Positions 32,597 through 48,179 of a stretch of DNA of 64,000 nucleotides are shown here, piece by piece. The notes beneath the pieces are model-generated. The model saw only the letters and a program-made list of their open reading frames with translations, had not been told where the DNA came from and ran no database searches. Positions within the stretch are counted from its first letter, which is position 1; each line of letters opens with the position of its first letter. The DNA lies in assembly GCA_001939945.1 (NCBI GenBank), contig MOEB01000003.1, forward strand, positions 124,001 through 188,000, read 5' to 3'. This DNA comes from Aerophototrophica crusticola. Lineage in GTDB: Bacteria; Pseudomonadota; Alphaproteobacteria; Azospirillales; Azospirillaceae. The position numbers and the translations under genes are program-made.

Positions 32597-34549
32597 CTAC
32601 TTCTCCTCCATCTTCACCTTGTCCCCCATTTCGCCTTTCCGCAGACGGTCCAGATGCAGGCGGGTGGGGCCGTCGTCGGGGCGGTCGGCGGCCAGGGACT
32701 CGAAGGCGTCAAGGGCGCCCGGGTCCTTGGCTTCCAGCAGGGCGTAGGCGGCCAGGTAGGCCTGGGTGAAGGGGCTGGCGGCGTCCTCCGCCGACAGGGG
32801 CTGGTAGACCGGGATGGGTTCCGTCTTGCCCTTCAGGACGATGCGGCCCACGGGGCGGCGGGGGATGTCGGGGCAGAGGCTGGCGGTGGCGCCGCTCATG
32901 GCGACGCGGGTGCCCAGGTACTTGTTCAGCCCCTCCAGCCGCGCGGCGGTGTTCACGTTGTCGCCCAGGGCCGTGTATTCGAACCGCAGCTCCGCGCCGA
33001 AGTTGCCGACGCTGGCCGGGCCGGAATGCACCCCGATGCGGGTGACGCCGAAGGCGCGGCCGGCGGCCTGTTCCGCCGCCAGGAAGGTTTGGGCGAACTG
33101 GTCCAACTCCAGCGCGCAGGCCGCGGCCCGGGCGGCGTGGTCGGGCTGGTCCTTGGGGGCGTTGAACAGGGCGAAGACGGCGTCGCCGATGAACTTGTCC
33201 ACCGTGCCGCCATGGCGGAACACCACCCGCACCATGCCGTCCAGGTAGCGGTTCATGACGTCGGACAGGCTGGCGGCGTCCATACCCTCCGCGATGGTCG
33301 TGAAGCCGGCCACGTCGGTGAAGATATAGCTTAGCTCCCGCCGCTTGGGGTCGAGCTGCAGCTTGGCCGGGTCGCGCAGGATGTCGTCCAGCAGGGCGGG
33401 GGACAGGTACTTGCTGAAGGCGCCCTGGATGAACTTGCGCTGTTCCCGCTCCTGCCGGCCGCTGTAGAGGTCGGCCATCCAGAGGGCCAGGGACAGGGCG
33501 AGCGACGGGGTGATGACAGGCACCATGACAGCCTGGTACCGGAACAGCAGGAACGCCCCCACCCAGATGCCCAGGATGCCGGCCAGGCCCAGCAGGGTGC
33601 GCAGCCACAGCGCCACCTCCATCCGCCCCAGCAGCAGCCCCACCAGGGCGGCGAGGGTGCAGGCGAGGAGGGAGAGCCACAGCCCCTGGGCCGGCGGGGC
33701 CTTGGCGTCCATCAGTTGGGCCAGCTTGTGGGCATGGACCAACACGCCGGGCATGGTGCTGTCCAGCCCGGTGCGGGCGGCGCGGAAGGGCGTCAGGTGC
33801 CGGTCGGCATCCAGCAGCACCGCCCCCACCAGGACCACCTTGCCCTTGAACCATGCGGGGGGGAGCACGGCGACGGTGTGGGCGGGGAATTGCCGGAAGG
33901 GTGGGGTGGCGCCGTCCTTTGCCCCGCGCCAGGCGATGGGCGTGCCCTCCGGCAGGGCGGCGGGCCGGCCCAGCTTCGTCAGCAGCGCCTCGCTGATCCC
34001 GGGCAGGCGGGTGCCGTCGGCCAGGGCCTTGGCCGTGAAGTATTCCCGCACCACCCCATCATAGGGGTCCTTGCGCAGGTTGGCGGCGGCGCGCAGGCCG
34101 GGGGGCAGGAATTGCTCCAGGAACCCCACCTGGGCGGCCGTCGCCCCCTCCGCCCCGTCGCCATAGCTGACCACGACGGGAATCTTGAGGTCGGCCAGGG
34201 CTTGGCGCAGGGCCTCGTCCTTGGCGGGCTCCGTCGGCGTGTCCAGCAGCACGTCCAGGAAGATGGCCGCCGCCCCCTTCTGCTCCAGCGTGCGCAACAG
34301 GTCGGCCAGGAAGCCGCGGTCGATGGGGCTGCGGTAGGGAAACCGCGCCACCGTCTCCTCCGTCAGGGCGGCGACGACGATGTCCGGGTGCTGCGGCTCC
34401 GGCGGCAGCAGGGTGGCGACGCGGTAGTCGGCCACCCAAGTCTCGAACCCGCCCAGGAACGGCAGCAGTCGCTCCATGGTCAGCGGCAGCAATGCCGCCG
34501 CCAGGGCAAGGGCGGCCATCAGGGCGGCGCGGCGCAGGCGGGGGCTCAA
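32597..34549 (-). CDS. CHASE2-domain class III adenylate cyclase
   Basis: This 650-residue membrane protein makes a cyclic nucleotide from NTP. An N-terminal helix (about 8-27) is followed by a periplasmic CHASE2 sensor (about 30-290; VADYRVATLLPPEPQHPDIVVAALTEE is cut here to its DIVVAALTEE core), three membrane helices (about 295-375) and a cytosolic cyclase domain. The metal-binding aspartates are in FTDVAGFT (about 410) and FIGDAVFALF (about 455). The purine-specifying pair is Lys in DKFIGD and Thr in EYTALGDNVN; Lys/Thr is the signature of class IIIb cyclases, which make cAMP and are often bicarbonate-responsive. It follows the two HD-type genes with only a four-base gap, so cAMP synthesis and breakdown may be co-expressed. 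The signal sensed by CHASE2 is unknown. Confidence 0.92.
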   Translation of the reverse strand: MSPRLRRAALMAALALAAALLPLTMERLLPFLGGFETWVADYRVATLLPPEPQHPDIVVAALTEETVARFPYRSPIDRGFLADLLRTLEQKGAAAIFLDVLLDTPTEPAKDEALRQALADLKIPVVVSYGDGAEGATAAQVGFLEQFLPPGLRAAANLRKDPYDGVVREYFTAKALADGTRLPGISEALLTKLGRPAALPEGTPIAWRGAKDGATPPFRQFPAHTVAVLPPAWFKGKVVLVGAVLLDADRHLTPFRAARTGLDSTMPGVLVHAHKLAQLMDAKAPPAQGLWLSLLACTLAALVGLLLGRMEVALWLRTLLGLAGILGIWVGAFLLFRYQAVMVPVITPSLALSLALWMADLYSGRQEREQRKFIQGAFSKYLSPALLDDILRDPAKLQLDPKRRELSYIFTDVAGFTTIAEGMDAASLSDVMNRYLDGMVRVVFRHGGTVDKFIGDAVFALFNAPKDQPDHAARAAACALELDQFAQTFLAAEQAAGRAFGVTRIGVHSGPASVGNFGAELRFEYTALGDNVNTAARLEGLNKYLGTRVAMSGATASLCPDIPRRPVGRIVLKGKTEPIPVYQPLSAEDAASPFTQAYLAAYALLEAKDPGALDAFESLAADRPDDGPTRLHLDRLRKGEMGDKVKMEEK

Positions 34550-34553
34550 TACC

Positions 34554-35384
34554 TCAGACCCCCGCCATCACATGCTCTTCCCGCAGCAAGTGGGAGCGCA
34601 TGGAGGACAGCCAGAGGCGGCCGGGCGTGGTGTATTCCAGCAGGGCGGCCCCGTCGCGGATGACCGGGGCCAGGGTGTTCCAGAACAGCTCGGTATAGTT
34701 GGCCCGGAACTCCACCACGTCCTTGAAGCCCAGCAGGCCCAGGATGCCCGACTCCTCCATCTCCAGGGTCAGGGGCTTCAGCTTGTGGACGAAGTAGGGG
34801 TCGGCCACGGCGCCGATCAGGTGGGCGGCGCGCAGCAGGCCCGGGTAGCTGTCCGTCTCCGGCAGCCGGTCCAGGGGCGGGGGGAAGCGGGCATAGTCCA
34901 GGTTGGCGGCCAGCATCTCCCCGTCCAGCACGGGGTCGCCGTGGAAGTGGCGGCGGGCGAACAGCATGCCGCGGTCGGCATAGTGGGGCCAGAGATAGGC
35001 GTCGGTGGCTCCCGGCGGCAGGGTGATGCTGGCCCCGTCCGCCACCACGCAGCAGGTGCCGTCATCCTCTGCCAGCAGGCGGCGGTTGAAGCCGACGGAG
35101 AAGAGGCAGAGGGAGGCAAGGAAATGCACCGCCTCGATGGAGCGGACATTGCCGTCCCGCACCACCTTGCCCCGCAGCATGTCCAGCCCGACGCAGACAA
35201 CTTGGACCGTGTGGTCGAGGTTATGGTAGACCGCGTCAGTGAGGGAGCTGAAGGTCAGCCCCACCCGCGCCGCCCGCAGCAGGGCATGGCGCTCCTGCGG
35301 CGGCGCGCCGGGAAACAGGTCCGTGAAGGCGGCACCCAGCCGTTCCAGCAGGGCCTCGGTCACGATGTCGGCCGGTCGGAACAT
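34554..35384 (-). CDS. Degenerate HD-type phosphohydrolase paralogue (metal ligands lost)
   Basis: This 276-residue protein is clearly related to its upstream neighbour: AVYHNLDHTVQVVCVG matches AIYHDLEHSMMVTSVG, DMLRGKVVRDGNVRS matches EIVRGKMLREGNVSP, and both end with a similar LEYTTPGRLWLSSMRSHLLREEH-type region (shared core SHxxxEEH). However, the central HD pair is absent: the segment reads LASLCLFSVGF (about 90-99) where the paralogue has LVALLCHDIGY, and a later conserved AADLIG reads AAHLIG. It is therefore probably a non-catalytic, perhaps regulatory, partner. The ATG at 35384 overlaps the stop of the upstream gene (TGATG); upstream in-frame codons lie within that gene. A cyclase gene follows after four bases. 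Confidence 0.8.
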   Translation of the reverse strand: MFRPADIVTEALLERLGAAFTDLFPGAPPQERHALLRAARVGLTFSSLTDAVYHNLDHTVQVVCVGLDMLRGKVVRDGNVRSIEAVHFLASLCLFSVGFNRRLLAEDDGTCCVVADGASITLPPGATDAYLWPHYADRGMLFARRHFHGDPVLDGEMLAANLDYARFPPPLDRLPETDSYPGLLRAAHLIGAVADPYFVHKLKPLTLEMEESGILGLLGFKDVVEFRANYTELFWNTLAPVIRDGAALLEYTTPGRLWLSSMRSHLLREEHVMAGV

Positions 35385-36229
35385 CAGCAGACCCTCCCCT
35401 GGCCGGCATGTTCCTCCACGAAGACGTGGGACAGCAGGCTGGCCACCCATTTCCGCCCCTCCCGCGTCACCTCGAGGTAGGCGAGGCCAGGCCCGATGTG
35501 GCGGTGCACATGGTTCCAGAAGAAGGACGGGTAGGTGCGGCGCAAGTCGGCGGGAGACTGGTTGCCCAGGCGCTTGTTGGTGCCCGTCTCCTCGAACTCC
35601 TGGAACAGGGCGGGCAGCTTGCGCAGGTAATCCGGGTCGCCCATCTGGCCGATCAGGTCGGCGGCGCAGACCAGCCCCGGCCAGTCGTCCTGGGGCTTGT
35701 CCTCCCGCTCCGGCACGGGGAAGCGGGTGTGCTCGATGCAGCGGCAGACGAAGTTGCTGTCGATGATGGGGTCGTCCCGGAAGCGCCAGCGGACGAACAG
35801 CTTGCCCCGCTCCACATGATAAGGTGTCAGGAAGGCGTCGGTCATGCCGGGCGGGATGTCCACCGTGCTGCCCGACGAGTCGGCCACCGCCCGGTCGCCC
35901 TTGTCGCCGGGGCAGATGCCGCGGATATAGCCGATGTCGTGGCAGAGCAGGGCCACCAGGTAGTTCACCCACTGGCCGGGGCTGACATTGCCTTCGCGCA
36001 GCATCTTGCCGCGCACGATCTCCTGCCCCACGGAGGTGACCATCATGCTGTGCTCCAGGTCATGGTAGATGGCCGTGGAGTTGCTGACGGTCTCCATCGC
36101 CAGCACGGCGGCGACGGACAAGGTGTTCAGGTGGTCCGGGTAGCCGGTGCCGTAGACCCGCTGGAACGTGTCCCGCAGCCGCCCGACGAAGTAGTCGATC
36201 AGGATCTGCCGGGAATCAAACGGGTCCAT
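35384..36229 (-). CDS. HD-domain phosphohydrolase, cyclic-nucleotide phosphodiesterase-like
   Basis: This 281-residue soluble protein has the ordered metal ligands of the HD superfamily: IYHDLEHS (about 54-61), the diagnostic HD pair in LCHDIGYIRG (about 95) and a later Asp in CAADLIGQMGD. The YHDxEH...HDIG spacing resembles class I cyclic-nucleotide phosphodiesterases more than dGTPases or HD-GYP proteins. Being first in a tight three-gene unit with a degenerate copy and an adenylate cyclase, it is likely to hydrolyse cAMP; the substrate is inferred. It has no membrane segment or sensor domain. The start is the ATG at 36229, preceded by a 171-base gap containing a strong terminator for the upstream operon. 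Confidence 0.8.
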   Translation of the reverse strand: MDPFDSRQILIDYFVGRLRDTFQRVYGTGYPDHLNTLSVAAVLAMETVSNSTAIYHDLEHSMMVTSVGQEIVRGKMLREGNVSPGQWVNYLVALLCHDIGYIRGICPGDKGDRAVADSSGSTVDIPPGMTDAFLTPYHVERGKLFVRWRFRDDPIIDSNFVCRCIEHTRFPVPEREDKPQDDWPGLVCAADLIGQMGDPDYLRKLPALFQEFEETGTNKRLGNQSPADLRRTYPSFFWNHVHRHIGPGLAYLEVTREGRKWVASLLSHVFVEEHAGQGRVC

Positions 36230-36400: not shown

Positions 36401-37141
36401 TCAAGCCAGGTAGTCGTGCAGAACCTTGCCGTAGGGCAGGGTCATGTCGGTGACGATGTGCAGGCCCGTGGCGGGCCCCAGCACCGGCAGGTCCGCAAGC
36501 GGGCAGTTCACGGCCGGGATCAGCTCCAGCCGGGCGGCGCCGGTCCAGGCGCCCTTCACGACGATGTCCGCGAACTCCACCGCCACCAGCTGGGCGATGG
36601 CGGGGCTGCCGTCGATGTCGGGGATCAGCTTCAGCGTCACCTGGGTGCGGGCGAGCTGGGCCTTGATTGCCGCCAGGTCGGTGCGGCCATGGTCGTGCTT
36701 GTAGGTCATGGTGCCCGTGGCCACGTGCTGCCCGGCATAGGTGAGGGTGCCGGTCAGGGTGTCCGCGTTGACCTTAAGCGCGGGCTTGCCGAACTTCATC
36801 GGGTAGCCCCACAGCTCACGCCCGCCGGCCAACGGGGGCGTGTTGTCCACGTACATCTGGCTGATGAAGTTGCAGGGCTTGCCGTCGAAGGTGCAGGGGA
36901 TGACCTGCGCCGTGGCGCCATAGGCGCCCATGCCCTGCCCGTCCGGCAGGTCCAGCCACTGGACGGAGACATAGTCCCCCGCCGGCTGCAACGGCTCCGG
37001 AAGGGCCTGGCGGATGGCGGCGGGGTCCGACTTGTAGGTCAGGACCATGTATTCGCGGTCGAAGAACTTGTAGGGCCCGTGCGGAAAAGTCGGGCTCTGC
37101 AAGGGCATGGACGGCAGCTTCAGGACGTCGGCCTTCTTCAT
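36401..37141 (-). CDS. Acetoacetate decarboxylase family protein with altered active-site lysine pair
   Basis: This 246-residue protein matches the acetoacetate decarboxylase fold throughout (SMPLQSPTFPHGPY, FISQMYVDNTPP, GGRELWGYPMKFGKP, GTLTYAGQHVATGTM). In the well-studied Clostridium enzyme, adjacent lysines 115 and 116 in a PKK motif form and activate the Schiff base. Here the motif is PMK, with Met115 in place of the first lysine and Lys116 kept. The neighbour at 37155-37919 keeps PKK. Loss of the Schiff-base lysine would normally abolish decarboxylation, so this copy may use the second lysine, do other chemistry, or be a partner subunit. It starts 13 bases after the paralogue's stop, in the same operon. 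Confidence 0.85.
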   Translation of the reverse strand: MKKADVLKLPSMPLQSPTFPHGPYKFFDREYMVLTYKSDPAAIRQALPEPLQPAGDYVSVQWLDLPDGQGMGAYGATAQVIPCTFDGKPCNFISQMYVDNTPPLAGGRELWGYPMKFGKPALKVNADTLTGTLTYAGQHVATGTMTYKHDHGRTDLAAIKAQLARTQVTLKLIPDIDGSPAIAQLVAVEFADIVVKGAWTGAARLELIPAVNCPLADLPVLGPATGLHIVTDMTLPYGKVLHDYLA

Positions 37142-37154
37142 GGTCTGATACCCC

Positions 37155-37919
37155 TCAGCCTTCCTGGTCCTTGATGTAGTCGAACAGCACCCGGCCGTGG
37201 GGCAGGGTGATGTCGCCGATGAAGTGCTTGCCGCCGACGATGCGCTTGATCGGCAGGTCGCCCACCGGCGCGTTCACGTGCGGGATCAGGTGCAGGCGGG
37301 CGGGCGACAGCCAGCTCCCCTTGATGGTGATCTCGGTCAGGTTATAGGCGACGAGCTGGCAGATCTTCGGCTTGCCGTCCACGTCGGGAATGATCTTCAG
37401 GTTGCACTGGGTCTTGGTCATGCCCTTGGCCATGGCCTCCACCCCGCCGGGCGACTCCTGGTGCTTGTAGGCCATGGTGCCCATGGCGACCAGCTGGCCG
37501 GCATAGTGCAGCGTGCCCGTCAGCGTGTCGGAGGTGACCTCCAGCTTCGGGTGCGCGTACTTCTTGGGGAAGCCCCAGATCTCGCGGCCGGCGCTGATCG
37601 GCGGCTCGTCGTCCAGGTACATCTGGGCGGTGAAGTTGATCGGCTCCCCCTTGAACAGGCAGGGGATGACGACGCCCGATTCGGTGTAGTCGCCGAAGCC
37701 GGAGCTGTCCGGCATCTTGATCCACTCATACAGCACGTGGCCGTCGGGGTTCGGCTCCAGCGGCTCGGGCACGGCCGCGCGCAGCAGGTCGTGGTCCGTC
37801 TCGTAGGTGATGATCATGTATTCCCGGTTCACGAACCGGTAGGGCCCCATGGGGTAGCTGGGGCTGGCCGCCGGCATGGACGGCAGCTTCAGGATCTCGT
37901 CAGGCGTCACGGTCGGCAC
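37155..37919 (-). CDS. adc: Acetoacetate decarboxylase
   Basis: This 254-residue cytosolic enzyme should convert acetoacetate to acetone and CO2. It has the full family pattern: SMPAASPSYPMGPYRFVNRE, FTAQMYLDDEPPISAGREIW, and the catalytic pair Lys119-Lys120 in WGFPKKYAHPK, then GTLHYAGQLVAMGTM. The length is typical. It is first in a two-gene operon with a paralogue whose equivalent motif is PMK. 3-Hydroxybutyrate dehydrogenase, which makes acetoacetate, is encoded nearby on the other strand, supporting a ketone-body or polyhydroxybutyrate role. The family also contains non-decarboxylating members, so acetoacetate as substrate is likely but not proven. Confidence 0.88.
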   Translation of the reverse strand: MPTVTPDEILKLPSMPAASPSYPMGPYRFVNREYMIITYETDHDLLRAAVPEPLEPNPDGHVLYEWIKMPDSSGFGDYTESGVVIPCLFKGEPINFTAQMYLDDEPPISAGREIWGFPKKYAHPKLEVTSDTLTGTLHYAGQLVAMGTMAYKHQESPGGVEAMAKGMTKTQCNLKIIPDVDGKPKICQLVAYNLTEITIKGSWLSPARLHLIPHVNAPVGDLPIKRIVGGKHFIGDITLPHGRVLFDYIKDQEG

Positions 37920-38018: not shown

Positions 38019-39125
38019 CTAGAGGAAGAGGCCCTTGATGTCGGTGGTCGTCTGGACCCCGATGTGGTCGAAATTCTCCTCCAGCCACTGGCTGGCGGTG
38101 GCCCGGCCAACGTCCCGCAGGTCCTGCAGGAAGTCCCAGTCCGGGTTCAGCTTGCTGGCCACGCCCAGGCTCCGCATGTGCTCGTCGTTGCGGATGGAGT
38201 GGATCAGCATCTGGCGGTGCTTCTCATCGTCCAGCTGGCCGTCCTGGATCAGGTGGCTGACGAAGGCGATGGCCCGCATCTCCCGCATCAGGGAGGAGTT
38301 AAAGCTGATCTCGTTGATGCGGTTCATGATGTCCCGCGCCGTGTTCGGGATCTCCTCCCGGTACAGCGGGTTGATGTGGACGATGATGACGTCGCTGGTG
38401 GTCGACCCGTAGATCAGCGGGAAGATGGCGGGGTTGCCCATGTAGCCCCCGTCCCAGTACGCCTCCCCGTCGATCTCCACCGTGTGGAACATGAAGGGCA
38501 GGCAGCCGGACGCCAGCACCGCCTCCACCCGCAGCTCATGGTTCTCGAACATCTTCACCTTGCCGGTGCGGACGTTCGTGGCCGACAGGAAGACCTTGAT
38601 CGGGCAGTCGCGGCGCAGCTTTTCGAAGTCCACGCACTCCAGGAGCACGTCCTTCAGCGGGTTCAGGTTCAGCGGGTTGAACTGCGCCGGGGACATCAGC
38701 CGGGACATGATGTCGAACATCATGAAGGCCGGGGAATAGTCCAGCGAGTGGTTCTTCATCATCTTGTCGAGCCAGCTGGGCTGCAACGGCCCGCGCGACC
38801 CCGCCTCACTGATCTTCTTCCAGAACTTCGCCAGCTCCCGCCTCGCCCCCTCGCGCCCCCCGATGGTTAGGCCGTAAGCCAGAACCGTCGCGTTCATCGC
38901 ACCAGCGGAGGTGGCGCTGACCGCCGAGTAGCCGATCCTCTCATCCTCCAGCAGCCGGTCCAACACCCCCCAGGCGAACGCCCCGTGGGCGCCGCCGCCC
39001 TGGAGCGCCAGGTTGACGGTTTTCACGGCCGGGGCAGGGGCTTGCGCCACACCCGGGACCGGACGGGGTCGGCTGGATTTGGCCGGCTTGGCGGCAGGCG
39101 CCGCCCTCAGCGTGGTGTCAGGCAT
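38019..39125 (-). CDS. Patatin-like phospholipase/hydrolase
   Basis: This 368-residue protein is a serine lipid hydrolase of the patatin family. The oxyanion-hole loop is GGGAHG (43-48), the nucleophile elbow is ATSAG with Ser73 (an Ala variant of GxSxG), and the catalytic Asp is in WDGGYMGNP (about 220), giving the Ser-Asp dyad. The first 35 residues are Ala/Pro/Lys-rich and look like a flexible tail, not a signal peptide, so it is probably cytosolic or peripheral to the membrane. It is divergent from 3-hydroxybutyrate dehydrogenase across a 173-base gap and upstream of the decarboxylases. Patatin-like proteins beside bdhA may act on storage lipids or polyhydroxybutyrate granules; that link is inference. 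Confidence 0.9.
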   Translation of the reverse strand: MPDTTLRAAPAAKPAKSSRPRPVPGVAQAPAPAVKTVNLALQGGGAHGAFAWGVLDRLLEDERIGYSAVSATSAGAMNATVLAYGLTIGGREGARRELAKFWKKISEAGSRGPLQPSWLDKMMKNHSLDYSPAFMMFDIMSRLMSPAQFNPLNLNPLKDVLLECVDFEKLRRDCPIKVFLSATNVRTGKVKMFENHELRVEAVLASGCLPFMFHTVEIDGEAYWDGGYMGNPAIFPLIYGSTTSDVIIVHINPLYREEIPNTARDIMNRINEISFNSSLMREMRAIAFVSHLIQDGQLDDEKHRQMLIHSIRNDEHMRSLGVASKLNPDWDFLQDLRDVGRATASQWLEENFDHIGVQTTTDIKGLFL

Positions 39126-39298: not shown

Positions 39299-40081
39299 AT
39301 GTTGAAGGGTAAGTCAGCCATCGTGACGGGTTCCACCAGCGGCATCGGGCTGGGCATTGCCCGCAGTCTTGCGGCGAAGGGGGCAAACATCCTGCTGAAC
39401 GGGTTCGGCGACCCGGCGGAGATCGAGAAGATCCGCCAGGCCATCGAATCGGAGTTCGGGGTGAAGGCCGCCTACAACGGTGCCGACATCAGCAAGCCCG
39501 AGCAGATCGAGGCCATGGTCAACCAGTGCGTCGAGACCTTCGGCGCCGTGGACATCCTGGTGAACAACGCCGGCATCCAGCACACCGCCGCGGTGGAGGA
39601 CTTCCCGCAGGCCAAGTGGGACGCCATCCTGGCCATCAACCTTTCCGGCGTCTTCTGGGGCATCCACTATGCACTGCCGCACATGAAGGCCAAGGGCTGG
39701 GGCCGCGTCATCAACATCGCCAGCGTGCACGGCCTGATCGCCAGCAAGCACAAGGCCGCCTACGTGGCCGCCAAGCACGGCGTCGTCGGCTTGTCCAAGG
39801 TGGTGGCCCTGGAGACGGCGGGCACCGGCGTGACCTGCAACACCATCTGCCCGGGCTGGGTGCTGACCCCGCTGGTGCAGAAGCAGATCGACGACATGGC
39901 CGCCCGTGAGGGCATCACCGTGGCGGCGGCGCAGGAGAAGCTGCTGAAGGAGAAGCAGCCCTCGGGCCAGTTCGCCACGCCGGACCAGCTCGGCGAGCTG
40001 GCGGCCTTCCTGGCGAGCGACGCCGCGGCCCAGATGACCGGCGCTGCGCTGCCCATGGATGGCGGCTGGACCTCGCAGTAA
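39299..40081 (+). CDS. bdhA: 3-Hydroxybutyrate dehydrogenase (SDR family)
   Basis: This 260-residue cytosolic enzyme interconverts (R)-3-hydroxybutyrate and acetoacetate with NAD. It has the short-chain dehydrogenase signatures GSTSGIGLG (11-19, cofactor binding), VDILVNNAGIQH, the catalytic Ser in NIASVHG (about 142) and the YVAAK pair Tyr155/Lys159. The sequence after it (GTGVTCNTICPGWVLTPLVQKQI) and the ending TGAALPMDGGWTSQ are characteristic of bacterial BdhA. It probably completes polyhydroxybutyrate breakdown, feeding acetoacetate to CoA transfer or to the nearby acetoacetate decarboxylase. It is transcribed divergently from the patatin-like gene and followed by a strong hairpin. Confidence 0.95.
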   Translation: MLKGKSAIVTGSTSGIGLGIARSLAAKGANILLNGFGDPAEIEKIRQAIESEFGVKAAYNGADISKPEQIEAMVNQCVETFGAVDILVNNAGIQHTAAVEDFPQAKWDAILAINLSGVFWGIHYALPHMKAKGWGRVINIASVHGLIASKHKAAYVAAKHGVVGLSKVVALETAGTGVTCNTICPGWVLTPLVQKQIDDMAAREGITVAAAQEKLLKEKQPSGQFATPDQLGELAAFLASDAAAQMTGAALPMDGGWTSQ

Positions 40082-41047: not shown

Positions 41048-42811
41048 ATGAAGATCCTGGTCCGCTATGTGACCCGCCGCCCCCGCGGCAACACGGTCAA
41101 CCGCGACGAGTTGGTGGAGGCGACGGAGCTGGGCATCGGCCGCGGCGCCGGTAACGCCCTGCACCTGTCCGACATCCGCATCCAGTACAACCACGCCGTC
41201 ATCCACCCCGCCGGCCCCGGCCACGCCACCATCCAGGCCCTGGGCGACGCGGATTTGGCTGTCAACGGCAAGCCCGTGCGCACGGCGGAGGTAAGCCCCG
41301 GCGACGAGATCGACGTGGGTCCGTACCGGCTCCGCCTGCTGGAGCCGGGGGAGGGACACGAGGTCGGCGTCTCCGCCGAGCTTGTGGCGCCCCAGTCCGA
41401 TGACGAGGAACGGGTGCGCGCCTGCGCCCGCACCAGCTTCGCCAGGGAGATGCCGGGCCGCCGCCCCATCGCCTGGGCCCTGGTGTCGGCGGTGCTGGTG
41501 CTGTTCCTGGCCCTGCCGCTGTACAGCTTCCTGGCGGAGCGGCCGACGGTCACGTCCGACGCGGGCCTCGACCCCGCCAGGATGGAGGCGATGCACCAGC
41601 GGATCGCCTTCGACACGGTCTGGACCAGCGGCGCCATCTCCGGCCCGCACCGCTTCACGGCGGAGAACTGCACCGCCTGCCACCAGGACGCCTTCGTCAT
41701 GGTGCGCGACAGCTCCTGCACCGCGTGCCACCAGGACATCGGCCACCACGCCGACCCGGCGGTGGCCGCCCTTGTGGGGGGCCTGGCGGAGACGCGCTGC
41801 GCCACCTGCCACAAGGAGCATGAGGGGCCGCAGGCCGCCGTGCAGGACGACCAGCGCAGCTGCACCACCTGCCACGCCAATTTGAAGGCGGAGCACCCCA
41901 AGACCGGCTTGCAGGACGTCTGGGCCTTCGACCCCGGCAAGCACCCGCAGTTCCGCCCGTCCGTCGTGACCGACGGCGCCACCGGGAAGGTGGAGCGGCT
42001 GGAGGTGGGCGGGCAGGTGCCGCTGGTGGAGAGGTCCAACCTGGTCTTCCCGCACAGCCGCCACCTGAAGGCGGAGGGCATCCGCGGGCCGGACGGCACC
42101 GTGAAGATGCAGTGCAGCGACTGCCACACCCCAAGCGGCGGGCTGTTCCAGCCGGTCAGCATGGAGAAGAACTGCCAGTCCTGCCATGCCATCAAGTTCG
42201 ACCCCGCCAGCCCCGCCCGCACCGTGCCCCACGTGGCGGCGGAGAAGGCGCTGGAGGTGGTGCGCGACCACTTCAACAGCATCGTCCTGTCCGGCAACTA
42301 TGACGACGTCACTGCCCCGGCGGTGGTCCGCCGCCGGCCCGGCACGGAGATGAAGCCGGAGGAGCGGGCCCAGGCCCTGCAATGGGCCGCGGTCAAGACG
42401 GGGGAGGCCATCGACCGGCTGGCCGGCAAGTCCGGCTGCGGCGGCTGCCATGTGGTGACCAAGGCGGGGGAGGGTGCCACGGCGACCCTGGCGGTGGCCA
42501 AGCTGCACGTCACCGACCGCTGGATGCCGAAGGGCATCTTCGACCACCCCAGCCACGACACCATGTCGTGCGACAGCTGCCACGCCGCCAAGACGAGCCA
42601 GGTCGCCACGGACGTGCTGCTGCCGGGGGTGCAGACCTGCACCGCCTGCCACGGCCCGCAGGAGGCGGCGGCCAAGGTGCCCAGCACCTGCGTCACCTGC
42701 CACGTCTTCCACCAGCCCGGCCTGCCGGCCATGCGGCCGGGCCCCGACGGCAAGACGGCCGCCCACCCCGCGCCCGCCCTGGCGCCCACGCCCGCGAGTG
42801 CTTCGCGATGA
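41048..42811 (+). CDS. FHA domain fused to a membrane-anchored decaheme cytochrome c
   Basis: This 587-residue protein starts with an FHA-like phosphopeptide-binding domain (about 20-100: LGIGRGAGNALHLSDIR, then YNHAVIHP, VNGKPV, and PGDEIDVGPYRLRLLE). A single helix at about 140-165 (PIAWALVSAVLVLFLALPLY) places the rest in the periplasm, where ten CXXCH motifs occur between residues 208 and 552: CTACH, CTACH, CATCH, CTTCH, CSDCH, CQSCH, CGGCH, CDSCH, CTACH and CVTCH. Many extra His residues could be distal ligands. The protein would therefore carry ten c hemes outside and a pThr-sensing domain inside, a combination I do not recognise from known systems. The FHA has no canonical Ser/His pair (QYNH in place of SRxH), so phosphobinding needs testing. 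It starts 13 bases after the cytochrome b gene and overlaps the next gene (ATGA). Confidence 0.88.
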   Translation: MKILVRYVTRRPRGNTVNRDELVEATELGIGRGAGNALHLSDIRIQYNHAVIHPAGPGHATIQALGDADLAVNGKPVRTAEVSPGDEIDVGPYRLRLLEPGEGHEVGVSAELVAPQSDDEERVRACARTSFAREMPGRRPIAWALVSAVLVLFLALPLYSFLAERPTVTSDAGLDPARMEAMHQRIAFDTVWTSGAISGPHRFTAENCTACHQDAFVMVRDSSCTACHQDIGHHADPAVAALVGGLAETRCATCHKEHEGPQAAVQDDQRSCTTCHANLKAEHPKTGLQDVWAFDPGKHPQFRPSVVTDGATGKVERLEVGGQVPLVERSNLVFPHSRHLKAEGIRGPDGTVKMQCSDCHTPSGGLFQPVSMEKNCQSCHAIKFDPASPARTVPHVAAEKALEVVRDHFNSIVLSGNYDDVTAPAVVRRRPGTEMKPEERAQALQWAAVKTGEAIDRLAGKSGCGGCHVVTKAGEGATATLAVAKLHVTDRWMPKGIFDHPSHDTMSCDSCHAAKTSQVATDVLLPGVQTCTACHGPQEAAAKVPSTCVTCHVFHQPGLPAMRPGPDGKTAAHPAPALAPTPASASR

Positions 42812-45800: not shown

Positions 45801-46806
45801 GACCTTCAACCCGGGCGGGCTGCTCACCGGAGCGCGCCACCTGGCCATCGCCGGCACCACCTTCTACGTGGTGGCGGACAAGGGGGTGGTGGTGCTGGAC
45901 ATGGACCAGCCCAAGGCGCCCAAGGTGCTGGCCACCATCCCGTTGGACGATGCCCGCGCCGCGGCGGTGCAGTTCCGCTACCTGTTCGTGACCACGTCCG
46001 AAGGGCTGCGGGTCGTTGACGTGACCACCCCGGCCAAGCCGCGGCTGGTCCAGGGGGCGCTGGTGCCGCTGGCGGACGCCCGCAAGCTGCACGTGGCCCG
46101 CACCTACGCCTATGTGGCGGCGGGCAAGGACGGCCTGGCCATCATCGACGTGGAGAAGCCGGAGAAGGCGTTCCTGTACCAGGCCTTCAACGCCGGGGGC
46201 ACCATCAACGACGCCTATGACGTGGTGGTGGCCTCCACCAACGCGTCGCTGTTCGCCTATGTGGCCGACGGGAAGAACGGGCTGAAGGTGTTGCAGCTCA
46301 CCTCCCCCGCCTCCCAGCCGAACTTCTACGGCTTCAGCCCGGAGCCGAAGCCGGAGCTGATCGCCTGGCGGAAGACGGTGCACCCGGCCCTGTCGCTGTC
46401 GCGCGGGCTGGAGCGGGACCGGGCGGTGGACGAGACGGGGCACCAGATCGCCGTGGTCGGCCGCAAGGGCTCCCGCCCCTTCACCCTGGAGGAGCAGAAG
46501 CAGCTCTACCTGGACAAGGCGGGCAAGCCCTGGGCCGTGACCGACAGGGTGGTGAAGGAAAGCTTCAAGCCGGCCGACACGACGCCGAAGCCCGTGCCGG
46601 CCCCGCCGGCGGGCGAGGGTGGGCGGCGCAAGCCGGGCGAGGGTGGGCCGGCAGGCCAGGGCACCGGCCCGGCCCTGCCGCCGAAGGACACGTCGCCAAG
46701 CCCGCCGCCGGAACAGTGGCGCCGCCGGCCGGGGGTGGAAACCTCCGTCCAGGCGGGCGGGGGTGCCGGGGCGGCAAAGGACGGTAGTGTGGGGGCGATG
46801 CGATGA
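42808..46806 (+). CDS. Decaheme cytochrome c with C-terminal LVIVD beta-propeller
   Basis: This 1,332-residue exported protein has a signal peptide (MTRWLGLLAALVLSAPALGAG, inside an extended start at 42808 that overlaps the previous gene as ATGA; the ATG at 42823 is the alternative). Ten CXXCH motifs lie between residues 57 and 782: CMTCH, CTDCH, CGACH, CAGCH, CMVCH, CVDCH, CKDCH, CFTCH, CGGCH and CTDCH. From about 870 to 1180 there are about six LVIVD-type repeats (YVSEGKGGFQVYDIA, GLVGVDITT, KGVVVLDM, EGLRVVDV, DGLAIIDVEKP, NGLKVLQL), which should form a beta-propeller. The last 80 residues are Pro/Gly-rich. Size and export suggest a periplasmic or cell-surface electron carrier, with the propeller for docking. 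No catalytic family is recognised, so it could also be a reductase. Confidence 0.88.
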   Translation: MRTRRMTRWLGLLAALVLSAPALGAGGEKPVERTYVTAPPAPYSQTQGQADAKSAGCMTCHTAVDQPSMHDAKSVVLGCTDCHGGNANVRWGGKGHQPGTPGYKEAMEQAHVLPRYPEFWGHAGAANPERSYAQLNKEAPEFIRFMNPSDYRVAREACGACHLPVIQAAERSLMATNAMFWGIVTYNNGILPYKDYILGESYTRDGKPAVLKSPVFKKTDQTYKNRILDVIYPMPRWEVIPPADIFRVFERGGRNINSLFPEIGLPNSLGQTQRLEEPGRPDIRQSNRGPGTGLRIAVPAINLHKTRLNDPLMWFQGTNDQPGDYRQSGCAGCHVVYANDRDPRHSSIYAKFGHGGLSQQADPTIPKDRPGHPLKHAFTRQIPTSQCMVCHMHQPNLFMNTYLGYTMWDYESDAPAMWPEKQAYPTDAEVRAINDRNPEGAAVRGKWGDVEFLKRVSELNPTLKDTQFADYHGHGWNFRAIHKRDRKGNLLDKDGNKVDANDPEKWKKAVHMSSIHVDVGMQCVDCHFAQDGHGTGMIHGEVSSAIEITCKDCHGTSQALPTLKTSGPAARPGGFDLASIRNADGKRRFEWVGDKLVQRSAVKPGLEWEMSLVKNTVDPNSPHYNAKAARAKLMSKDTATQAWGPGVAPQDLAHKDEEMACFTCHLSWTTSCGGCHLPIEANWKTPLHRYEGGETRNYATYNPQVAREDMFQLGKHGPDKDGQVAPFASRSALVLSSTNINRERLYIQQPPIAASGYSSQAFAPHYPHTERKEETKTCTDCHLSTEGDNNAIMAQLLLHGTKYVDFVGFFAWVGADGGVEAVRVTEWDEPQAVVGSYLHRYAYPDWFKEHVDRGRELKTDGTREIDSVAKDAGRASCIQMRGEYLYVSEGKGGFQVYDIASVANKGVSEKILTGPFSPLGHDTHVPTKNATCVVLPTTQPIAPNRNEGELMRVTNMEQPMHPIYRHAYVTDAEEGLVGVDITTLTDGDPQNNFLERDLTFNPGGLLTGARHLAIAGTTFYVVADKGVVVLDMDQPKAPKVLATIPLDDARAAAVQFRYLFVTTSEGLRVVDVTTPAKPRLVQGALVPLADARKLHVARTYAYVAAGKDGLAIIDVEKPEKAFLYQAFNAGGTINDAYDVVVASTNASLFAYVADGKNGLKVLQLTSPASQPNFYGFSPEPKPELIAWRKTVHPALSLSRGLERDRAVDETGHQIAVVGRKGSRPFTLEEQKQLYLDKAGKPWAVTDRVVKESFKPADTTPKPVPAPPAGEGGRRKPGEGGPAGQGTGPALPPKDTSPSPPPEQWRRRPGVETSVQAGGGAGAAKDGSVGAMR

Positions 46807-48179
46807 GCGTTGTGGGGAAGGGGGAGGCCATGTCTGGCAATCGGCTTGTCGCGCGCGCCGCGGCGTGGGTCCTTGGGGCGTTCGTGGCGCTGGCGGGCGG
46901 GGCTGCCCAGGCCGCCGACGTGGCGCTGCCGCACCAGGCCAAGGACGTGCACCTGGGCGTGGCGAGCTGCGCCGGCAGCACCTGCCACGGCGCGGTGGCG
47001 CCCTGGCGGGACAGCAACGTGCTGCAGAACGAATACACCACCTGGATGGCCAAGGACCCGCACGCCAAGGCGTACAGTGTGCTGCTGAACGACCATTCCA
47101 AGCGCATCGCGAAGAATTTGGGCATCCCCGCGGCGCATGAGGCGAAGGTCTGCCTGGACTGCCACGCCGACAACGTGGCCCCCGCCCAGCGCGGGGCGCA
47201 GTTCCAGCTCTCCGACGGGGTGGGGTGCGAGGCCTGCCACGGCGGGGGCGAGCGCTGGCTGGGCATCCATGTCAGCGGCAAGGCCACCCACGCCCAGAAC
47301 GTGGCCGCCGGCCTGTTCCCGACGGAGGACCCGAAGCACCGGGCCAACCTGTGCCTGGGCTGCCACCTGGGCGACGAGACCCGGGCTATCACCCACAAGA
47401 TCATGGGCGCCGGCCACCCGCGGCTGGCCTTCGAGCTGGACACCTTCACCAGCATCCAGCCGGCCCACTACCGGGTCGACGACGACTATGCCAAGCGCAA
47501 GGCGGTGGCCAACGGGGTGAAGACCTGGGCCATCGGCCAGGCCATCGCCCTGTCCAAGTTCATGGACCTGGTGGCAGACCCGGCCCGCAACCGCGACGGC
47601 ATCATGCCGGAGTTCGTGCTGTATGACTGCCAGTCCTGCCACACGCCCCTGAACAACATGACCTGGCAGGCCCAGGCCACCCAGGGCATCGGGCCGGGGG
47701 TGCCGCGGCTGCACGGGGCCAACGCGGCCATGCTGAAGGTGATCGCCGCCGCTGTGGCGCCCGGCATGCAGGCGGAGCTGGTGGAACGGTCCCGCGCCCT
47801 GCACGCCGCCAGCCAGCGCGACAAGGCGGAGATGGAGCGGGCGGCCAAGGCCCTGAAGCAGACGGCGGACAAGCTGGCCGACAGCTTCGCGGGCCGCGCC
47901 TTCGACGGCAACGACATCCGCGCCCTGATGCAGGCGCTGGTGGCCGCGGGGCTACAGGAGGGCTATGCCGATTATGCCAGCGCGGAGCAGACCACCATGG
48001 CCCTGTCGGCGGTGATCGACGCGCTGAAGGCCACCGGCCAAGTGGACCCGACGCGGCACCGGGGCATGCAGCAGGCACTGGAAGCCTGCTATGCCGCGGT
48101 GAAGCAGGACGCCACCTACACGCCCGCCGCCTTCACCGCCGCCTTGCAGCAGTTCCAGGCGGCCATGCCGGCATTCTGA
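46803..48179 (+). CDS. Cytochrome c554-like multiheme protein
   Basis: This 458-residue protein has a signal peptide (MSGNRLVARAAAWVLGAFVALAGGAAQAAD from the internal ATG at 46830 is cut here to its core AAWVLGAFVALAGG; either ATG is possible). It has four standard heme motifs, CLDCH, CEACH, CLGCH and CQSCH, plus one expanded motif CAGSTCH (CX4CH) at the N-terminus. The pattern ASCAGSTCHGAVAPW followed by NEYTTWMAKDPHAKAY is characteristic of the cytochrome c554-like family. The last 150 residues are helical and Ala-rich without hemes. It overlaps the previous gene by four bases (ATGA) and ends the operon before a strong hairpin. It probably exchanges electrons with the two decaheme proteins. 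Confidence 0.88.
   Translation: MSVVGKGEAMSGNRLVARAAAWVLGAFVALAGGAAQAADVALPHQAKDVHLGVASCAGSTCHGAVAPWRDSNVLQNEYTTWMAKDPHAKAYSVLLNDHSKRIAKNLGIPAAHEAKVCLDCHADNVAPAQRGAQFQLSDGVGCEACHGGGERWLGIHVSGKATHAQNVAAGLFPTEDPKHRANLCLGCHLGDETRAITHKIMGAGHPRLAFELDTFTSIQPAHYRVDDDYAKRKAVANGVKTWAIGQAIALSKFMDLVADPARNRDGIMPEFVLYDCQSCHTPLNNMTWQAQATQGIGPGVPRLHGANAAMLKVIAAAVAPGMQAELVERSRALHAASQRDKAEMERAAKALKQTADKLADSFAGRAFDGNDIRALMQALVAAGLQEGYADYASAEQTTMALSAVIDALKATGQVDPTRHRGMQQALEACYAAVKQDATYTPAAFTAALQQFQAAMPAF

Follow-up and report, generated by a model that had tools for sequence, protein, structure and literature searches.

The window, that is, the whole stretch of 64,000 nucleotides that we analysed, contains three genes in a row on the minus strand, read from 36229 to 32597. 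They encode an intact HD-domain protein, a degenerate paralogue of the latter, and a class III cyclase with a CHASE2 sensor (Table 1). An earlier note on this DNA had described three linked genes of exactly this kind, and the open reading frames are indeed there. The paralogue has a true ATG at 35384, overlapping the stop codon of the intact HD gene; the 472-aa frame open from 35972 is a mere upstream extension of the same 276-aa frame. The TTG start of the cyclase lies 4 nt past the stop codon of the paralogue. Both cyclase domains score above the Pfam cut-offs (CHASE2, 109.2 vs. 26.3 bits; Guanylate_cyc, 61.5 vs. 21.9 bits), and putative catalytic residues (FTD, GD, K, N, R) are visible in the translation.

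Table 1. Features of the HD pair and the adjacent cyclase in the window.
Feature	Position	Strand	Basis
Intact HD protein, NF045583-like, class I PDE-like predicted fold, 281 aa	35384..36229	-	ORF; NF045583 334 bits, E 4.7e-100; AF2 pLDDT 93
Degenerate HD paralogue, 276 aa	34554..35384	-	ORF; NF045583 181.6 bits; PDE10A Z 14.9; one clade
CHASE2 class III adenylate/guanylate cyclase, 650 aa	32597..34549	-	TTG start, Pfam domains
CHASE2 sensor domain of the cyclase, residues 24-305	33635..34480	-	PF05226 3.3e-31
Catalytic domain of the cyclase, residues 405-577	32819..33337	-	PF00211 1e-16
TGATG stop/start overlap between the two HD genes	35382..35386	-	sequence
H97-D98 metal-ligand codons, intact HD protein	35936..35941	-	alignment
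Phe95-Ser96 codons in place of the HD pair, paralogue	35097..35102	-	alignment

Several other genes of the window deserve mention. Two adjoining acetoacetate decarboxylase paralogues (36401-37141 and 37155-37919, minus strand; 297 and 350 bits) have beside them a patatin-like phospholipase (38019-39125) and a short-chain dehydrogenase (39299-40081). A 7868-aa frame (3921-27527, minus strand), whose first 3176 residues contain DUF4347, Big_12, SWM, cadherin-like and Ig-like domains, probably encodes a giant repeat protein, either secreted or on the cell surface. A 587-aa protein (41048-42811, plus strand) combines, unusually, an FHA domain with motifs like those of multihaem cytochromes, and a cytochrome c554/c7-like protein (46803-48179, plus strand) is encoded near it.

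Both HD proteins match the NF045583 family (Npun_R2479 family HD domain-containing metalloprotein) over the full length, with 334 and 182 bits, and they are the only NF045583-like members in the genome. These scores are below the curated equivalog cut-off of 400 bits, which is exceeded by a member in just one of the 385 genomes of the class. The intact copy covers positions 1-274 of 275 and has all site residues; the degenerate copy is homologous without these residues. The NF045583 description presents an uncharacterised family and does not mention a conserved dead paralogue, and Npun_R2479 is not named in the open-licence literature that we searched.

The site residues are numbered below as in the intact protein. 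The segment LLCHDIGY of the intact protein corresponds to LCLFSVGF in the paralogue, and AADLIGQ to AAHLIGA. The earlier note had seen the loss of the HD pair (LFSVG) and of the later Asp (AAHLIG), and here it was right, but it took the rest of the site to be kept. H138 is gone as well (YHVER has become YYADR), Q195 is replaced, and F236 is changed to Leu. Hence six residues, H97, D98, H138, D191, Q195 and F236, are replaced in the paralogue, and H56 and H60 are retained. On the other hand, H56, H60, H97, D98, H138, D191 and Q195 are invariant in 104 of 104 intact relatives. In the clade of dead copies (11 sequences, about eight of them distinct), H97 is always replaced by Phe, D98 by Ala or Ser, H138 by Ala, Tyr or Phe, D191 by His or Arg, and F236 by Leu; H56 and H60 are kept throughout.

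The relatives were gathered from 82 genomes of the family, 385 genomes of the class and 398 genomes of the phylum, and from a scan of named genomes. The dead copies form one clade (support 100/100) and their tandem partners form another (100/99). Four Niveispirillum genomes contribute to the dead clade, as do four others, of Oceanibacterium and of three further alphaproteobacteria. With one dead clade beside one partner clade, the pair seems to go back to a single old duplication and to have been passed on together. The dead gene always lies directly downstream of the intact one, either overlapping it or separated from it by a few to about 35 nt. The dN/dS ratio of the dead copy in the two closest species is about 0.03 (dN 0.006, dS 0.24), indicating purifying selection. 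The same residues have been lost throughout a clade supported at 100/100 and kept in the intact relatives, which is beyond chance. Judged from the sequences, the second protein is a conserved pseudo-enzyme, as the earlier note had proposed, and not a decaying pseudogene.

Family matches occur in alphaproteobacteria, sulfur-oxidising gammaproteobacteria, deltaproteobacteria and many cyanobacteria. Oscillatoria has a separate degenerate clade of its own, with D98 changed to Asn, H138 to Arg, and D191 to Thr or Ser (motifs CHN, YRADR and A[TS]LIG; L064, 9983-10876, and L069, 2510-3385). D191 is missing from one Thiomargarita copy. Very distant members from other proteobacteria, with scores of 52-71 bits (L206, 7714-8697; L207, 7292-8440), may represent an additional branch. 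The degenerate copies of one more genus, represented by G337, may share the origin of the dead clade of the window or may have arisen separately: support for one side is 92/100, their grouping with their own intact partners is not rejected (p-AU 0.22), and the branches are very long.

The AlphaFold2 model of the intact protein has a mean pLDDT of 93.1 (31 sequences), and that of the dead copy 83.9 (6 sequences), the five models of the latter ranging from 55 to 84. The best 50 VIA-align rows for the intact model are all catalytic domains of class I cyclic-nucleotide phosphodiesterases (PDEs), with Z of 15.9-17.2 over 224-243 residues; for PDE10A, Z is 17.2 over 228 residues at 3.3 A. The dead model also yields class I PDEs, with Z of 13.8-14.9, PDE10A at the upper end. 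The Foldseek E-values by themselves are weak, none being below 0.08, and the probabilities reach 0.99. Since helical proteins can attain Z of 13 by chance, the class I fold call rests on structure and sequence combined. The earlier note had considered the intact protein phosphodiesterase-like, and the predicted model, closest to the class I cyclic-nucleotide PDEs, points the same way.

In the sequence comparison we used PDE4D, PDE5 and PDE10 sequences matched letter for letter to PDB entries. The family profile matches the profile of these three with P of 1.6e-4, exactly across YHx3H and HD. The primary metal ligands H60, H97, D98 and D191, and H56, the general-acid His of YHN, are aligned with their PDE counterparts in 104 of 104 intact members, and H138 is aligned with the second His of the PDE4D ENHH motif. 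The alignment is weaker in the C-terminal part, where ADLIG falls on ADLS, EFEETG on EFFRQG, and Phe236 on the clamp Phe. The purine-binding Gln of the class I PDEs is aligned by MAFFT with Tyr233, in a low-confidence region; this position is Tyr in 102 of 104 intact members. The last His of HDxxH is Tyr101 in the intact protein, and Thr168 is a possible equivalent of the Thr in the ATD motif of PDEs. The metal centre and the general acid of the intact protein appear to be class I like, and its base pocket probably is not.

PF00233, the Pfam family of class I PDEs, is matched weakly in 18 of 31 intact members (at best 1.4e-4); a Pfam search of the intact window protein gives no PF00233 match, and none of the proteins tested reaches the gathering score, the L134 member having 17.0 vs. 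24.8 bits. A PF00233 search of nine genomes had no hits even in the controls, so that nothing about absence follows from it. Since both the Pfam score and the purine Gln fail, we do not file the intact protein as a class I PDE. It looks built to work like one. Designed PPR repeats, retrieved by the whole-profile PDB sequence search, were rejected as chance matches to the 186-230 stretch.

The three genes had been taken by the earlier note for one module. In the genus this does not hold: the cyclase is present in all 11 Niveispirillum genomes and the HD pair in four of them, and they are adjacent in the window strain only; in the other three genomes with the pair, the cyclase is either some 6 kb off or located on a different contig. 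Elsewhere the link reappears. An intact-degenerate-cyclase triple, in the same order and on one strand, is found in three species of an unrelated alphaproteobacterial genus (G337, G831, G832). The cyclase of this genus, in G337 28 nt away on the same strand, is of class III and has no CHASE2 domain. The degenerate copies of this genus have 30.9-41.4 bits to the family, and every site residue is gone in G337; the intact member, as seen in G337, bears a C-terminal GAF domain, a domain also present in many eukaryotic PDEs. Further, a cyclase lies 30 nt upstream of the family gene on the same strand in G263, and 45-61 nt off and convergent in G499 and G680; in Microvirga the distance is 1.5 kb. 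No cyclase lies within 2 kb in 18 of 23 proteobacterial lineages or at any of the cyanobacterial loci examined.

A neighbour scan with the single window cyclase as the query missed the G337 operon, which was detected by a profile of eight cyclases. The cyclase link had been regarded as a coincidence, based on the genus data and the single-cyclase scan, and this was revised after the use of the profile. With the window excluded, three lineages with an abutting cyclase were seen vs. 0.18 expected (0.28 if all loci are counted apart; P 0.0008-0.003), an enrichment that is suggestive only, since the test was devised post hoc, family codes served to delimit the lineages, and the many cyanobacterial loci that lack a cyclase did not enter it. 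The expectation was derived from per-genome cyclase counts, those of two plasmid hosts being assumed. Moreover, cyclase neighbourhood is weak evidence of the substrate, because the PDE SpdA of S. meliloti, whose gene lies next to cyaD1, proved to act on 2',3'-cNMPs (PMC4222275).

The genes next to the pair vary between genomes and include acetoacetate decarboxylases, a REC-HWE kinase, GNAT, a CoA-transferase and DUF815; unrelated genes surround the other pairs. In two Niveispirillum species a receiver-HWE histidine kinase is encoded directly upstream of the pair (L119, 11719-13749; L121, 2019-4019, minus strand). In G445, a calcineurin-like phosphoesterase (PF00149; L123, 7365-8192, plus strand), a possible class III PDE, is convergent with the tandem pair. 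A downstream neighbour recurring at 36 cyanobacterial loci is ABC permease-like by sequence.

From these data we infer the following scheme. The intact gene would encode a metal-dependent hydrolase with the fold and the metal centre of class I cyclic-nucleotide PDEs. The dead twin would be produced together with it via overlapping translation and act as a dedicated pseudo-phosphodiesterase, most likely in a complex with the live protein and regulating it, and possibly holding a ligand in its metal-free pocket. The pair would lower the level of a cyclic nucleotide that class III cyclases produce; in this strain the CHASE2 cyclase is probably one of them. We think it somewhat more likely than not that the live protein hydrolyses a cyclic nucleotide, and give the same chance to the dead protein being its stoichiometric partner or regulator. 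For the complete scheme, in which the CHASE2 cyclase belongs to the circuit of this strain, the chance is slightly less than even. The recurrence of such sets with an adjacent cyclase in unrelated bacteria suggests that the set may tune a cyclic-nucleotide signal.

The most serious competitor, somewhat doubtful in our opinion, is that this is a real enzyme and pseudo-enzyme pair acting on another phosphodiester or nucleotide, like the SidE PDE domains or other HD hydrolases, with the cyclase as a coincidental neighbour. The change of Gln to Tyr in the base pocket fits such a substrate, the SidE/SdeA PDE domains are among the first Foldseek rows, the genes next to the pair differ between genomes, and most family members have no cyclase nearby. 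However, the structural match over the full length is to class I PDEs, neither to SidE nor to dNTPases, abutting cyclases exceed the expectation, and there is a second intact-dead-cyclase operon in an unrelated genus.

The role of the second protein may be read differently, too. It could be a free-standing binding protein, a sensor of a cyclic nucleotide or another ligand, that has simply retained the pocket and is no partner of the first protein. H56, H60, R141, E211, Y233 and W238 are retained together with the fold, and the fixed Phe at 97 and Leu at 236 are what a remodelled pocket might have. We consider this improbable, as the dead gene is always in tandem with the intact one and their frames overlap or nearly do so, which favours a stoichiometric assembly. 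That most metal-site residues are gone would also be expected of a functionless, decaying duplicate, but identical substitutions are shared by one clade across several families and the frames are free of stops; this reading, with hardly any probability left to it, is rejected given the low dN/dS and the clade conservation. The preferred description is an enzyme and pseudo-enzyme pair acting on a cyclic nucleotide, probably as a complex. Its extension to a whole bacterial branch of the class I PDE fold, a two-subunit enzyme whose dedicated dead subunit senses a cyclic nucleotide and gates the live one, joined to class III cyclases on several independent occasions to form an on/off cassette, is less likely than not.

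The scheme offers a testable function for a widespread uncharacterised family, and it places a bacterial family near the fold of the human cAMP- and cGMP-degrading PDEs that are drug targets. The pair is a natural system for studying the control of a live enzyme by its dead twin. Some of the host bacteria have up to 40 class III cyclase matches, and little is known about how such signals are ended.

Among known systems, the class I PDEs (PF00233; PDE4, PDE5, PDE10) are similar to the intact protein in the predicted fold of the whole domain and in YHx3H, HD, the later Asp, the general-acid His, the second His of ExHH and the EFxxxG helix. The differences are the identity of about 12%, the purine Gln apparently substituted by Tyr233, and HDxxH without the last His. 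The PDE domain of SidE/SdeA, whose substrate is ADP-ribosylated ubiquitin, has an HD-type PDE fold and ranks high in the Foldseek list, but a smaller part is covered, with TM to the query of about 0.35. The combination of a fixed dead twin and a recurrent cyclase neighbour appears to be undescribed within the open-licence literature searched. Class I PDEs are described as eukaryotic, and class III as bacterial (PMC8115329). In CAPE of plants a class III cyclase and a class I type PDE are likewise encoded together (PMC8115329), although as a single fused eukaryotic protein with an intact PDE and without a dead twin.
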